DNA from: an uncultured Elusimicrobium sp.
Lineage (GTDB): Bacteria > Elusimicrobiota > Elusimicrobia > Elusimicrobiales > Elusimicrobiaceae
Reading direction: 5' to 3'
NCBI GenBank assembly: GCA_946061795.1
Contig: CAMGSK010000011.1
Coordinates: forward strand, 1-17,209
DNA: 17,209 nt
In this document: positions 3,411 to 5,152 of the stretch, piece by piece
How the letters are laid out: the number at the start of each line of letters is the position of its first letter
Numbering within the stretch: position 1 is the first letter of the stretch
The notes under the pieces: model-generated
Database searches by the model: none
What the model was told of the DNA's origin: nothing
What the model saw: the letters and a program-made list of their open reading frames with translations, nothing else
Program-made: the position numbers and the translations under genes

Positions 3411-3456
3411 AAGGGGGCTCCTCTTAAGAATGCGATCCTCAAGAGGAGCCCCCTTT
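3411..3456. terminator. Bidirectional terminator-like inverted repeat between convergent genes
   Basis: AAGGGGGCTCCTCTT (3411-3425) and AAGAGGAGCCCCCTT (3441-3455) are perfect complements, a 15-bp GC-rich stem with a 15-nt loop. It lies between the end of arsR (plus strand) and the end of the pilin gene (minus strand), where a shared terminator is expected. Only three T follow on the plus strand and two on the minus strand, so it is not a textbook U-run terminator. It could instead protect 3' ends. Confidence 0.6.
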
Positions 3457-3486: not shown

Positions 3487-4044
3487 CTACGGAAGAGGAG
3501 AAAACTCCTTACCGATCACTTTTTTACAAAAAGTTCCTTCTTCTTGAGAAAATACGGCCCCTGTTCCGCGAATTTGTTCTACACAATAAATAATATTTGG
3601 GTCTGCTTTCCAATTTTCTTTGTGGTCCCATTGACCAAAAAAGTATGCAAATCCACTTCCCCGGTAGGGTCCCGTCAGTCTGCCCATGTATATGACGGGG
3701 ATAATATTGCCGTTGTCCGCTATCCATTGCAGTTGCAAAGACCAGTCTTGGGAAGAGCGGGTGGCTTTTAATCCCGTTTTCCAGGTGGTCGTACCGTTCC
3801 AAGGGACCTGAATGTCCAATACATCAAAGGAGGAGGCCCATTCCCCGTTGGCCATGTAATAAGCTGTATAAGCCTGAGCCACCGATTTGAGCGTAATTAA
3901 GGCTTGGGTCGCCTGGCTTTTTGCCACCGCTTTTTGGTATTGCGGCAGCGCGATAGAACTTAAGATCCCACTAATTAATACTATGACCAGCAGTTCGATT
4001 AAAGTAAATCCCCGGTAAGAGGTCGGTTTAAGTGTTGCGTTCAT
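3487..4044 (-). CDS. Type IV pilin / pseudopilin-like protein
   Basis: A 185-residue protein with a class III (prepilin) signal: a 12-residue basic leader ending in Gly12, then Phe13 and the conserved Glu at mature position 5 (Glu17) in GFTLIELL. Residues 13 to about 37 form the hydrophobic helix that anchors the subunit and packs in the filament core. ALPQYQKAVAKSQATQAL continues the amphipathic helix. Cys154 and Cys173 near the C-terminus could form the D-region disulfide of type IVa-like pilins. A prepilin peptidase would cleave after Gly12; the product would sit in the inner membrane and assemble into a pilus or pseudopilus. The start at 4044 gives a proper leader peptide and has an AGGAA element upstream. 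The frame stays open for 44 more codons, but these lie in the structured leader and would spoil the signal. No pilus assembly genes are adjacent. It is an isolated pilin gene of the kind I associate with Elusimicrobiota. Confidence 0.85.
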   Translation of the reverse strand: MNATLKPTSYRGFTLIELLVIVLISGILSSIALPQYQKAVAKSQATQALITLKSVAQAYTAYYMANGEWASSFDVLDIQVPWNGTTTWKTGLKATRSSQDWSLQLQWIADNGNIIPVIYMGRLTGPYRGSGFAYFFGQWDHKENWKADPNIIYCVEQIRGTGAVFSQEEGTFCKKVIGKEFSPLP

Positions 4045-4331
4045 CGTTTGGTTCCTATAGACAAGCTCTGTACAATAAAAACGGCCATCATACAGAGCCT
4101 CCAAGAAGTTGCCCTTATATAATAGCCGTGGCTTATCGTTAGACGATAAACACTGGGCACAAAACGGAGGGCTCATGACTTCCCTGAGTTTTGTGCCTAA
4201 AACGGCTATATTTGACTTCTTGGAGAACTTCTTGCGAAGTTAACCCGCATGCCGAATGCGGTTCAAATATAGCTATAAATTGTATGTTTACGCCCGGCGG
4301 CGTTTTGTTCCGAAACTCCTTCCGTTAAATA
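4045..4331 (-). promoter_or_regulatory. Long structured 5' leader of the pilin gene, candidate attenuator or riboswitch-like RNA
   Basis: Read on the minus strand, the leader is almost entirely paired. Helices seen: 4264-4273 with 4205-4214 (10 bp, perfect), 4215-4225 with 4099-4109 (11 bp, perfect), 4202-4209 with 4122-4129 (8 bp, perfect), 4156-4165 with 4188-4197 (10 bp, perfect), 4133-4139 with 4143-4149 (7 bp), and 4065-4072 with 4091-4098 (8 bp, perfect). A 6-bp hairpin at 4226-4241 has a GCAA (GNRA) tetraloop only in the minus-strand RNA, supporting that orientation. Segment 4205-4209 is shared by two helices. Segment 4122-4129 can instead pair with 4081-4088 (8 bp with one U-G), which is followed by UUUU in the RNA. 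This matches no family I can name. Confidence 0.55.
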
Positions 4332-4337
4332 TGCATT

Positions 4338-4366
4338 ATTCTACAAAAACGGAAAAACACTGTAAA
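4338..4366 (-). promoter_or_regulatory. Promoter for the pilin gene
   Basis: On the minus strand, TTTACA (4366 to 4361) and TAGAAT (4343 to 4338) are 17 bp apart, each one base from consensus. The predicted start is near 4331, giving a leader of about 287 nt. It lies back to back with the rplJ promoter about 45 bp away. Confidence 0.65.
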
Positions 4367-4385: not shown

Positions 4386-4414
4386 TGTCTTTGCTCATCG
4401 TTTTTTGTTATAAT
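4386..4414 (+). promoter_or_regulatory. Promoter of the rplJL-rpoBC cluster
   Basis: A perfect TATAAT (4409-4414) is preceded by TG at 4406-4407, an extended -10. The -35 region is poor (TGTCTT at 4386-4391 at 17-bp spacing). The predicted start is near 4421, at the base of the hairpin at 4423-4468. Extended -10 promoters tolerate a weak -35. No other promoter was seen before rplJ. Confidence 0.65.
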
Positions 4415-4422
4415 ATATACAG

Positions 4423-4470
4423 AAGCCGCGGATAAGACGATTGCAAAAAGGGTTGCAATAGGCGGCTTTT
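4423..4470 (+). promoter_or_regulatory. Promoter-proximal hairpin in the rplJ leader
   Basis: AAGCCGC (4423-4429) pairs with GCGGCTT (4462-4468), and inside it ATTGCAA (4440-4446) pairs with TTGCAAT (4453-4459). Four T in total (4467-4470) end the structure, two of them in the stem. It would be the first thing transcribed from the promoter. It may protect the 5' end or act as an early weak terminator. It does not resemble an L1 or L11 leader that I can recognise. Confidence 0.45.
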
Positions 4471-4503
4471 ATTGATAAAATAGAATAAGAAGTATCCCGG
4501 ATT

Positions 4504-4627: not shown

Positions 4628-5152
4628 ATGAACCTGACTAAAGAACAAAAGAAACAAAAGTCGCAAGAGTTGTCTGCCGAAATCACCAATGCCGGCACCA
4701 TTTTCTTCACGGCCTATCAAGGCTTGAAGTTTGTGGATATGGCTGATTTGAGAGCGAAACTTGCCCCGACCGGAGCCAAATTCCGCGTTGAGCGCAACGC
4801 CATCTTGGATCACGCCATCCGGCAGGCCAAAATTGAAGGAGCTGACGGAAAGCTTTTTCAAGGGCCTACGGCGGTGGCCGTCGGCGGCGATATCGCCGCT
4901 GTAGCCAAAACGCTGGTGGATTTCCAAAAGACCCAAGCGGCTTTGAAGCTCAGAGCTTGCTATTCCGACGGAGTATGGTATGACGAGGCTCAGGTAAAAC
5001 AATTGGCTACCATCGGTACCAAAGAAGAAAACCTGTCCAAGTTGGCCGGTGCGTTGTACAGCGCGGTTGCCCAGTCGGCGCAAGTCCTGCAGGCTCCGAT
5101 CAGGGATTTTGCCTACGTTATCAAAGCCTTGGAAGAAAAACAGGGCAAATAA
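4628..5152 (+). CDS. rplJ: 50S ribosomal protein L10
   Basis: L10 forms the base of the ribosomal stalk. Its N-terminal domain binds 23S rRNA next to L11, and its C-terminal helix carries two or three L7/L12 dimers. At 174 residues the length is normal. The N-terminal segment MNLTKEQKKQKSQELSAEI, the core FRVERNAILDHAI (about 52-64) and GPTAVAVGGD (about 79-88) are typical. The C-terminal region from about 140 (LAGALYSAVAQSAQVLQ, then the terminal helix ending ALEEKQGK) matches the L7/L12-binding end. An AGG lies about eight bases before the start. It is first in the operon, after its leader. Canonical rplK and rplA are not upstream. The 353-nt gap to rplL is much longer than usual. Confidence 0.96.
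   Translation: MNLTKEQKKQKSQELSAEITNAGTIFFTAYQGLKFVDMADLRAKLAPTGAKFRVERNAILDHAIRQAKIEGADGKLFQGPTAVAVGGDIAAVAKTLVDFQKTQAALKLRACYSDGVWYDEAQVKQLATIGTKEENLSKLAGALYSAVAQSAQVLQAPIRDFAYVIKALEEKQGK

Follow-up and report, generated by a model that had tools for sequence, protein, structure and literature searches.

A Structured Leader Upstream of a Type IV Pilin-like Gene

The window considered here, which is the whole stretch of 17,209 nucleotides that was analyzed from an uncultured Elusimicrobium sp., carries on its minus strand a type IV pilin-like gene (3487-4044), and the minus strand of 4331-4045 forms the leader of this gene. The minus-strand fold reaches -99.3 kcal/mol (z = -5.05), a stability that none of 200 shuffles equaled. 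As the plus strand is likewise structured (z = -4.88, 0/200 shuffles), the strand is not settled by folding energy alone, but it is by a promoter-like site, a U-run, the sense orientation of the pilin gene, and the homologues described below, all of which point to the minus strand. In the window leader, the promoter-like site with the highest score is found upstream of segment A, and on the basis of this predicted promoter the transcript is expected to start near 4331. The features of the locus are as follows, in the order of transcription:

4361..4366, minus strand: -35-like TTTACA, belonging to the top-scoring promoter-like pair of the window leader (17-nt spacer; scored without shuffle control)
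4338..4343, minus strand: -10-like TAGAAT of the same pair (17-nt spacer)
4277..4283, minus strand: ACAAUUU motif just 5' of A; by eye, like motifs precede A in many f1 copies
4263..4273, minus strand: segment A, anti-antiterminator 5' strand; perfect complement of B, with covariation of A:B and PA
4245..4261, minus strand: hairpin PA within the A:B junction; predicted folds and covariation of A:B and PA
4226..4241, minus strand: hairpin PB with a GCAA loop; predicted folds, sequence strongly copy-dependent
4215..4225, minus strand: segment E, 5' strand of the private antiterminator lock; 11-nt complement of F, pairing copy-specific
4205..4215, minus strand: segment B, partner of A, overlapping C and the first base of E; complement and covariation
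4202..4209, minus strand: segment C, 5' strand of P1 (antiterminator); complement of D, covariation
4156..4197, minus strand: hairpin P2; predicted fold and covariation, apical loop AAGUCAUGAG at 4172-4181 with the palindrome UCAUGA at 4173-4178
4131..4151, minus strand: hairpin P3; covariation and stepwise folds
4116..4129, minus strand: segment D, serving either as the 3' side of P1 or as the 5' side of the terminator; complement, covariation, and hairpin energy
4099..4109, minus strand: segment F, 3' strand of the private lock, or upper part of the terminator hairpin when that forms; complement and covariation
4082..4094, minus strand: segment T, 3' strand of the terminator; D:T covariation, hairpin of -23.6 kcal/mol
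4077..4081, minus strand: U-run after the terminator (UUUUU in the window)
4065..4098, minus strand: post-terminator hairpin, in the loop of which T can sit; fold and complement, similar complements being seen by eye in some other copies
3487..4044, minus strand: type IV pilin-like gene downstream of the leader, 185 aa; PF07963 N_methyl at 27.5 bits versus a cut-off of 21.2, inferred start at ATG 4044

The first-pass annotation of this DNA had described three perfect complements, and each of them is found at 100%: A:B (4205-4215/4263-4273, 11 nt), C:D (4122-4129/4202-4209, 8 nt), and E:F (4099-4109/4215-4225, 11 nt). Two of its three further hairpins are also present, at 4156-4197 (arms 88% complementary) and at 4065-4098, and the third, P3, does exist with an extent of about 4131-4151, slightly wider than the 4133-4149 it had been given. 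As had been noted, only the minus strand reads GCAA in the loop at 4232-4235, and PB, which carries this loop, is among the least conserved parts of the leader.

A Leader Family in Two Distant Families of Elusimicrobiota

Blastn recovered a second copy of the leader in the window's own genome and hit 45 of 199 relatives, three of these by weak, short matches outside the family, and it returned no match against phages and plasmids. A first alignment gathered 28 of 31 loci, leaving out L020 (degenerate), L006 (near-identical to L007), and L019 (contig-cut). The core of these 28 copies is a three-way junction of 31 predicted pairs, and for 19 of these pairs one or more sequences carry a change at both positions. 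P1 encloses P2 and P3 in the aligned copies.

A covariance model of this core (R1), built without the A, E, F, and T segments and with E-values that are rough owing to a short calibration, matched 78 of the 199 relatives and 89 of 340 genomes sampled across the phylum. The positive genomes fall in six of 100 genera, two of them in the window's family (78 genomes) and four in a distant family, f21 (11 genomes: G299, G305, G311-G313, G315, and G317-G321); under strict filters, none of the remaining 94 genera sampled gave a match. The presence of the leader in two distant families may stem from horizontal transfer or from many losses.

Copy numbers vary widely. As 20 candidates were scored per genome among the relatives and 11 in the phylum search, the counts are lower bounds: in the search of the 199 relatives, 56 of the 78 genomes hold 1-5 matches and 22 hold 7 or more. 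With 150 candidates scored, G000, G040, G044, and G075 yielded 4, 43, 18, and 38 copies, respectively, and ten genomes picked for high counts hold from 18 to 127, the highest number found. An exact DNA pattern of the P2 loop and the J2-3 junction, which covers one loop class, recovered 11 stretches from 10 genomes among genome contigs, all assigned to Elusimicrobi*, and none among viral contigs.

No Rfam family matched over the leader in the window or in 13 further loci (4227 families, E-value up to 1), in line with the first-pass remark that the leader fits no known family. With regard to the literature, no earlier account of it appeared among the top-ranked titles and abstract openings of a mostly open literature, and no pilin term occurs in the main text of two surveys of structured RNAs (PMC2864571 and PMC8040213). 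The former names the termite-gut motifs Termite-flg and Termite-leu (PMC2864571), both of which are present in Rfam and do not match the leader.

Upstream of the core, the family shares a 5' stretch, ACAAUUU.AUCUGUUUUUGG, which supplies A, the partner of B at the start of the core. The window deviates from the family on both strands of A:B, with CUAUAUUUGA pairing with UCAAAUAUAG where the family form is CUGUUUUUGG with CCAAAAACAG. By eye, the leaders of f21 (L177, L179, L189, and others) replace ACAAUUU.AUCUGUUUUUGG by their own 5' consensus, AACUUAAUAUUGAAUGUUUUUGG, with PA as UCCGAAAGGA. Also by eye, six leaders of G075 (L110, L111, L116, L121, L125, and L143) show, next to a small hairpin that precedes the AAUUU motif, an AUG with UAA or UAG directly behind it, that is, a start-stop; the start-stop of L121 is preceded by AGGAG, and the window copy has no such element.

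The Leader Mainly Precedes Pilin Genes

To describe the downstream genes, we considered every copy found in G000, G040, G044, and G075, that is, 103 copies. A sense N-methyl type IV pilin follows 73 of them, 70 being recognized by a wider sequence pattern (52 by a first one), L114 and L170 by Pfam, and L116 by the first pattern; the same leader thus stands before other pilin genes, as the earlier reading had led one to look for. For 102 of the 103 copies, the sequence read includes the start of an open reading frame in sense orientation, the exception (L077) running off its contig. The best promoter-like sites, scored without shuffle control, end 100-139 nt before the core in 38 of the 103 copies and are more scattered in the rest.

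L077 aside, 29 copies precede other genes, most of which were examined with Pfam; those behind L137 and L156 were judged by their likeness to those behind L127 and L154. These genes encode glycosyltransferases of family 2 (L074, L080, L130, and L151) and family 8 (L136), staphylococcal-nuclease-like proteins (L139, L148, L154, and L173), TPR proteins (L127, L138, L141, L158, and L176), DUF4422, LicD, a bacterial sugar transferase, two HAD hydrolases, a DNA methylase, an NgoFVII-like PLD protein, and a YgjP-like metallopeptidase, and several have no Pfam hit or sub-threshold ones alone. A second set took the 64 copies listed highest among the 281 of G060, G025, G054, and G087, and 62 of these 64 precede pilins (61 by script, L252 by eye). 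The association with pilins is weaker in f21: in a sample of 30 of 65 places there, one of which (L201) ends at its contig, a pilin-like start was seen by eye after about six copies (L186, L194, L195, L198, L200, and L206), and for four copies the sequence read shows no open frame.

The pilin of the window had been described as a lone gene, a description that does not fit the 77 N_methyl matches held by its genome. More broadly, N_methyl matches number from 56 to at least 150 per genome in ten genomes of the window's family (G000, G025, G029, G040, G044, G046, G060, G066, G075, and G082; at least 150 in G060), and three f21 genomes hold 7, 59, and 89. The pilins carrying the leader form a part of each repertoire, and G066 has none according to R1. 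The leader family points to an RNA-controlled regulon in Elusimicrobiota rich in N-methyl pilins and suggests a specific mechanism by which the expression of some of these pilins may be prevented or selected.

Covariation Supports Mutually Exclusive Helices

A larger alignment was built from 97 leaders, namely the window and 96 of the 103 copies, leaving out L078 (the window itself), L081, L165, L167, and L172 (A motif), and L166 and L175 (no T match); the four omissions made for a poor A-motif match flatter A slightly, and the row of the window is shifted by one column at A:B. In this alignment, the antiterminator structure (E:F, C:D, P2, and P3) has 90.6% of its cells paired versus 71.7% in shuffles, and 33 of its 39 pairs show changes on both sides. 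The corresponding values are 95.5% versus 88.2% and 11 of 15 pairs for A:B with PA, and 91.2% versus 82.6% and 7 of 12 pairs for D:T. In each of the three structures, the covariation score lies above all 500 shuffles, and sliding the pairing by 1-3 columns leaves at most 68% of cells paired. The count of both-side changes was matched by 4 and 5 of 500 shuffles for the antiterminator structure and D:T. Since the shuffles ignore relatedness, it is the slid controls and the change counts that carry the argument.

On this basis, a lack of covariation, which the first-pass annotation had named as grounds for rejecting its proposal, is excluded for these 97 leaders. The overlap of B and C, together with covariation for both pairings across the family, supports the claim that A:B and C:D exclude each other, and D:T covariation combined with the U-run (five adjacent columns, each with U in 91-94 of the 97 rows) supports the claim that a freed D forms a terminator stem. 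Two of the helices call for more detail. Taken alone, C:D shows both-side changes in three of nine pairs and one-side variation in six, few both-side changes being found owing to the mutual constraints among C, D, B, and T. As for A:B, it pairs almost as well between copies as within them, the two median energies lying at -14.4 and -13.5 kcal/mol versus -10.0 in shuffles; this near equality arises because both strands are conserved, and the support for A:B therefore rests on few changes.

A Predicted Order of Folding

We then considered the minimum-energy folds of growing transcripts, computed for naked RNA at 37 °C and without kinetics, in 94 of the 97 rows (L076, L088, and L114 being out for lack of T columns). 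A:B is predicted in 93 of the 94 once B has been made and in all 94 after P2 and after P3. Once F has emerged, C:D and E:F are predicted in 93 each, and once T has emerged, the terminator and A:B are predicted in 80 each, the antiterminator being kept in 14. In f21, A:B is predicted in 28 of 29 leaders, the antiterminator in 27, and the terminator in 27, with the antiterminator kept in two. A comparison of energies on the exact alignment pairs, covering 69 of the 97 rows, gave the terminator state in 59, the antiterminator in 8, and another state in 2. The window follows the same predicted order in the span up to T, and over 4040-4331, with the downstream hairpin included, it keeps the antiterminator as its minimum-energy fold; default termination is hence not universal, given this window fold and the 14 leaders that also keep the antiterminator.

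The terminator had been called weak on account of a 33-nt loop. This assessment is contradicted by the window hairpin (4129-4082), which has a folding energy of -23.6 kcal/mol and runs into UUUUU, and F lies in the upper part of this hairpin, leaving no open loop of 33 nt; across 101 leaders, the median energy of the terminator hairpin is -21.7 kcal/mol.

Taken together, these observations make it very probable that the window leader is a transcription attenuator controlling the access of polymerase to the pilin gene. An intrinsic terminator lying between the predicted promoter and the gene, combined with a covarying and exclusive antiterminator, fits that class. According to the mechanism that we propose, A:B would pair first; the emergence of D and F would then allow C:D and E:F to strip B/C from A and to hold D, forming the antiterminator; and, once T emerges, D may move to T to make the strong hairpin with its U-run while A:B re-forms. 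As this last stage is the minimum-energy state in most copies while the antiterminator comes earlier, the outcome would depend on the lifetime of the antiterminator. If the P1-P2-P3 junction is held, the polymerase would read through into the gene; otherwise, transcription would terminate, yielding a short transcript of the leader, some 255 nt in length.

What Could Set the Switch

With regard to the input of this putative attenuator, one may first think of a translation-coupled attenuator of the trp/his type, in which a ribosome on a short leader peptide would mask A. A ribosome-site-plus-start pattern does occur in 19 of the 103 upstream regions versus 8.7 in shuffles, and frames reach A in 9 of 103 versus 5, a small excess; however, 84 of the 103 regions lack the pattern, the window leader contains no ATG in the span from the predicted transcript start to A, and several leaders have their best promoter-like site near A, all of which makes this reading very improbable.

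Another candidate is a trans-acting RNA-binding protein, for instance of the ANTAR or BglG/SacY-like type, that would set the switch at ACAAUUU/A or at PA and PB. The recurrence of the motif before A and of the tandem hairpins PA and PB is compatible with a single factor serving all copies, but the regulator genes searched for (with G000 being 86% complete) give little hold to this idea: ANTAR was found in none of five genomes of the window's family and in two of four f21 genomes (0/14 in controls, so that the sensitivity of the search rests on the two f21 matches), CAT_RBD in none of nine genomes, and CsrA above cut-off in none of the nine, with one sub-threshold match. We therefore regard control by a protein as possible but somewhat unlikely. 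Control by ANTAR, CAT_RBD, or CsrA in particular is unlikely in the window's family, none of them giving a match above cut-off in the five genomes searched. For the attenuator, the input candidates suggested by sequence would then be a ligand, some other protein, or an RNA contact to which P2 points. The most likely input, put forward with less assurance, would be such an RNA contact or a ligand acting at the P2 loop or the J2-3 junction, and the first candidate is that leaders belonging to one loop class touch each other.

A Private Lock in Most Copies

E:F reaches at least eight perfect pairs in 92 of 101 leaders (of the 103 copies), whereas 0.3% of mismatched combinations do so, and in three of the nine failures (L076, L088, and L114) the script had matched T wrongly. 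The second set behaves likewise, with 61 of 64 copies versus 0.6% of mismatched combinations, and E and F are complementary in 28 of 30 f21 copies, a count made without cross control. The 9-mers of E are distinct in 98 of the 101 leaders. Among leaders with cores 80-90% identical (88 pairs), E is shared at 35%, equal to what is seen at 60-70% core identity, when in the same 88 pairs A is shared at 98% and the P3 stem at 80%, core identity itself including P2 and P3; the variability of PB is that of E. With their own E, 98.9% of 94 folds are predicted to form E:F, and 98.9% to form C:D; when the E of another leader is swapped in, E:F is left in 23.4% and C:D in 74.5%, so the antiterminator has support besides E:F.

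This variability bears on a reading raised by the first-pass annotation, that of a dispersed palindromic, MITE-like mobile element with 11-bp ends sitting before the gene by chance. The many dispersed copies of some genomes are what one would expect of such an element; yet E and F, its proposed ends, differ from copy to copy where terminal inverted repeats would not, a sense frame starts behind all copies other than the one that runs off its contig, and an internal terminator with its U-run is conserved, so that we give this reading almost no credence. In the attenuator that we favor, the private E:F helix would instead confine strand exchange to one molecule, even though A, B, D, and T are near-identical in dozens of leaders. 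The divergence of E and F may reflect simple drift, E and F answering only to each other, or selection against cross-talk.

A Self-complementary Loop at the Tip of P2

Folding of 197 leaders gave 195 P2 loops of four or more bases, 37 of them distinct, and a 6-nt palindrome is present in 24 of these 37 versus 6.6% of shuffled loops. Counted per copy, 75% of P2 loops hold a 6-nt palindrome and 93% one of at least 4 nt, when no such hexamer occurs among the distinct loops of P3 (0/67), PA (0/80), and PB (0/65), which are shorter on average (0.1-1.2% in shuffles). The 24 palindromic loops do not represent 24 independent events, since they share eight hexamers (UAAUUA, UCAUGA, UUAUAA, UUCGAA, UUGCAA, UCUAGA, CACGUG, and UAGCUA). 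Other loop classes carry GAUC, AGCU, or a GACG tetraloop; several classes coexist within single genomes, and the main ones also occur in f21.

Another reading is that the leader is a metabolite riboswitch, with the P1-P2-P3 junction or the A:B domain as the aptamer and the remainder as the expression platform. A conserved three-way junction joined to a terminator and conserved unpaired positions, such as the A of J2-3 at column 184 (96 of 97 rows), would suit an aptamer. However, the P2 loop falls into several unrelated classes, alike mainly in their self-complementarity, which is unlike a fixed pocket, the Rfam search of the 14 leaders was negative, and the downstream genes show no evident common metabolic pathway; on balance, we hold a riboswitch to be conceivable, albeit doubtful.

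A more speculative possibility, which we consider unlikely and advance tentatively, is that kissing P2-loop contacts, made by terminated or nascent leaders with others of the same class, bias in trans the choice between antiterminator and terminator across the pilin repertoire, the private E:F helix keeping strand exchange intramolecular. Against a dimer, the hexamers UAAUUA and UUAUAA consist of A and U only, the flanks are not always purines, and CGCU and a few other P2 loops are non-palindromic. If such contacts were genuine, they would amount to a sense-sense, same-class RNA regulation in bacteria, and the resulting network of leaders could coordinate or restrict which of many pilins are expressed. 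The combination of a private lock with a self-complementary loop also constitutes a natural test of cross-talk avoidance among dozens of similar RNA switches.

Relation to Known RNA Systems

The trp and his attenuators consist of four segments forming three mutually exclusive pairings, the last of which is an intrinsic terminator, and their outcome is decided during transcription. The leader shares this logic through A:B, C:D, and D:T; unlike them, it has no general leader peptide, adds the private helix E:F and the P2/P3 three-way junction, lies mainly at pilin genes, and is present in many copies in some genomes. In transcriptional riboswitches, a conserved junction is coupled to an antiterminator/terminator exchange, a trait that the leader has in common with them, but it differs from them in having no Rfam match and in its class-variable, mostly self-complementary apical loop.

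As for the P2 loop, the HIV-1 dimerization loop has a two-six-one layout, which the 9-nt P2 loops match. HIV-1 is described as forming kissing dimers via a six-nucleotide palindromic loop and Moloney viruses via a GACG loop, in the portion of the source available (PMC7357161), and the apical 6-nt palindrome or GACG tetraloop of P2 resembles, to that extent, the HIV-1 DIS and MoMuLV/MoMuSV elements (PMC7357161). Unlike these retroviral kissing loops, P2 belongs to bacterial mRNA leaders, some of its palindromes are A-U only, its flanks are not always purines, and its dimer is putative. The accessible part of the same source also describes the Guanidine-II riboswitch, whose small hairpin loops kiss through self-complementary bases, thought to do so between two hairpins of one RNA (PMC7357161); in contrast, each leader has one P2. 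Finally, in the two-hairpin antitermination system of ANTAR proteins, as presented in the available part of its description (PMC3369936), the antiterminator excludes the terminator; the leader is similar in this respect and differs in the absence of an ANTAR gene from the five window-family genomes examined.

Other Structured Elements

Several further elements were observed around the leader copies. In the window, an inverted repeat at 4409-4482 (TATAATATATACAGAAGCCGC / GCGGCTTTTATTGATAAAATA, 71% complementary) lies upstream of a plus-strand frame at 4628, likely rplJ, and the Rfam search of the window gave no ribosomal-leader match there. Two Rfam matches were set aside: one to c-di-GMP-II at 1736-1809 of the window, which lies inside the 23S rRNA and far below the gathering score, and a sub-threshold one to mir-202 in L157 (659-721), on the plus strand and thus opposite to the leader strand there. 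By eye, a long inverted repeat (GGGGGCTCCTCTT...AAGAGGAGCCCCC) at 3413-3455 of the window, between an ArsR-like frame and the pilin gene, is probably a terminator. In L188, a sub-threshold match to the glmS ribozyme (2011-2179; 25.9 bits versus a gathering score of 37, E-value 0.016) lies about 400 nt past the leader and is possibly a divergent glmS.
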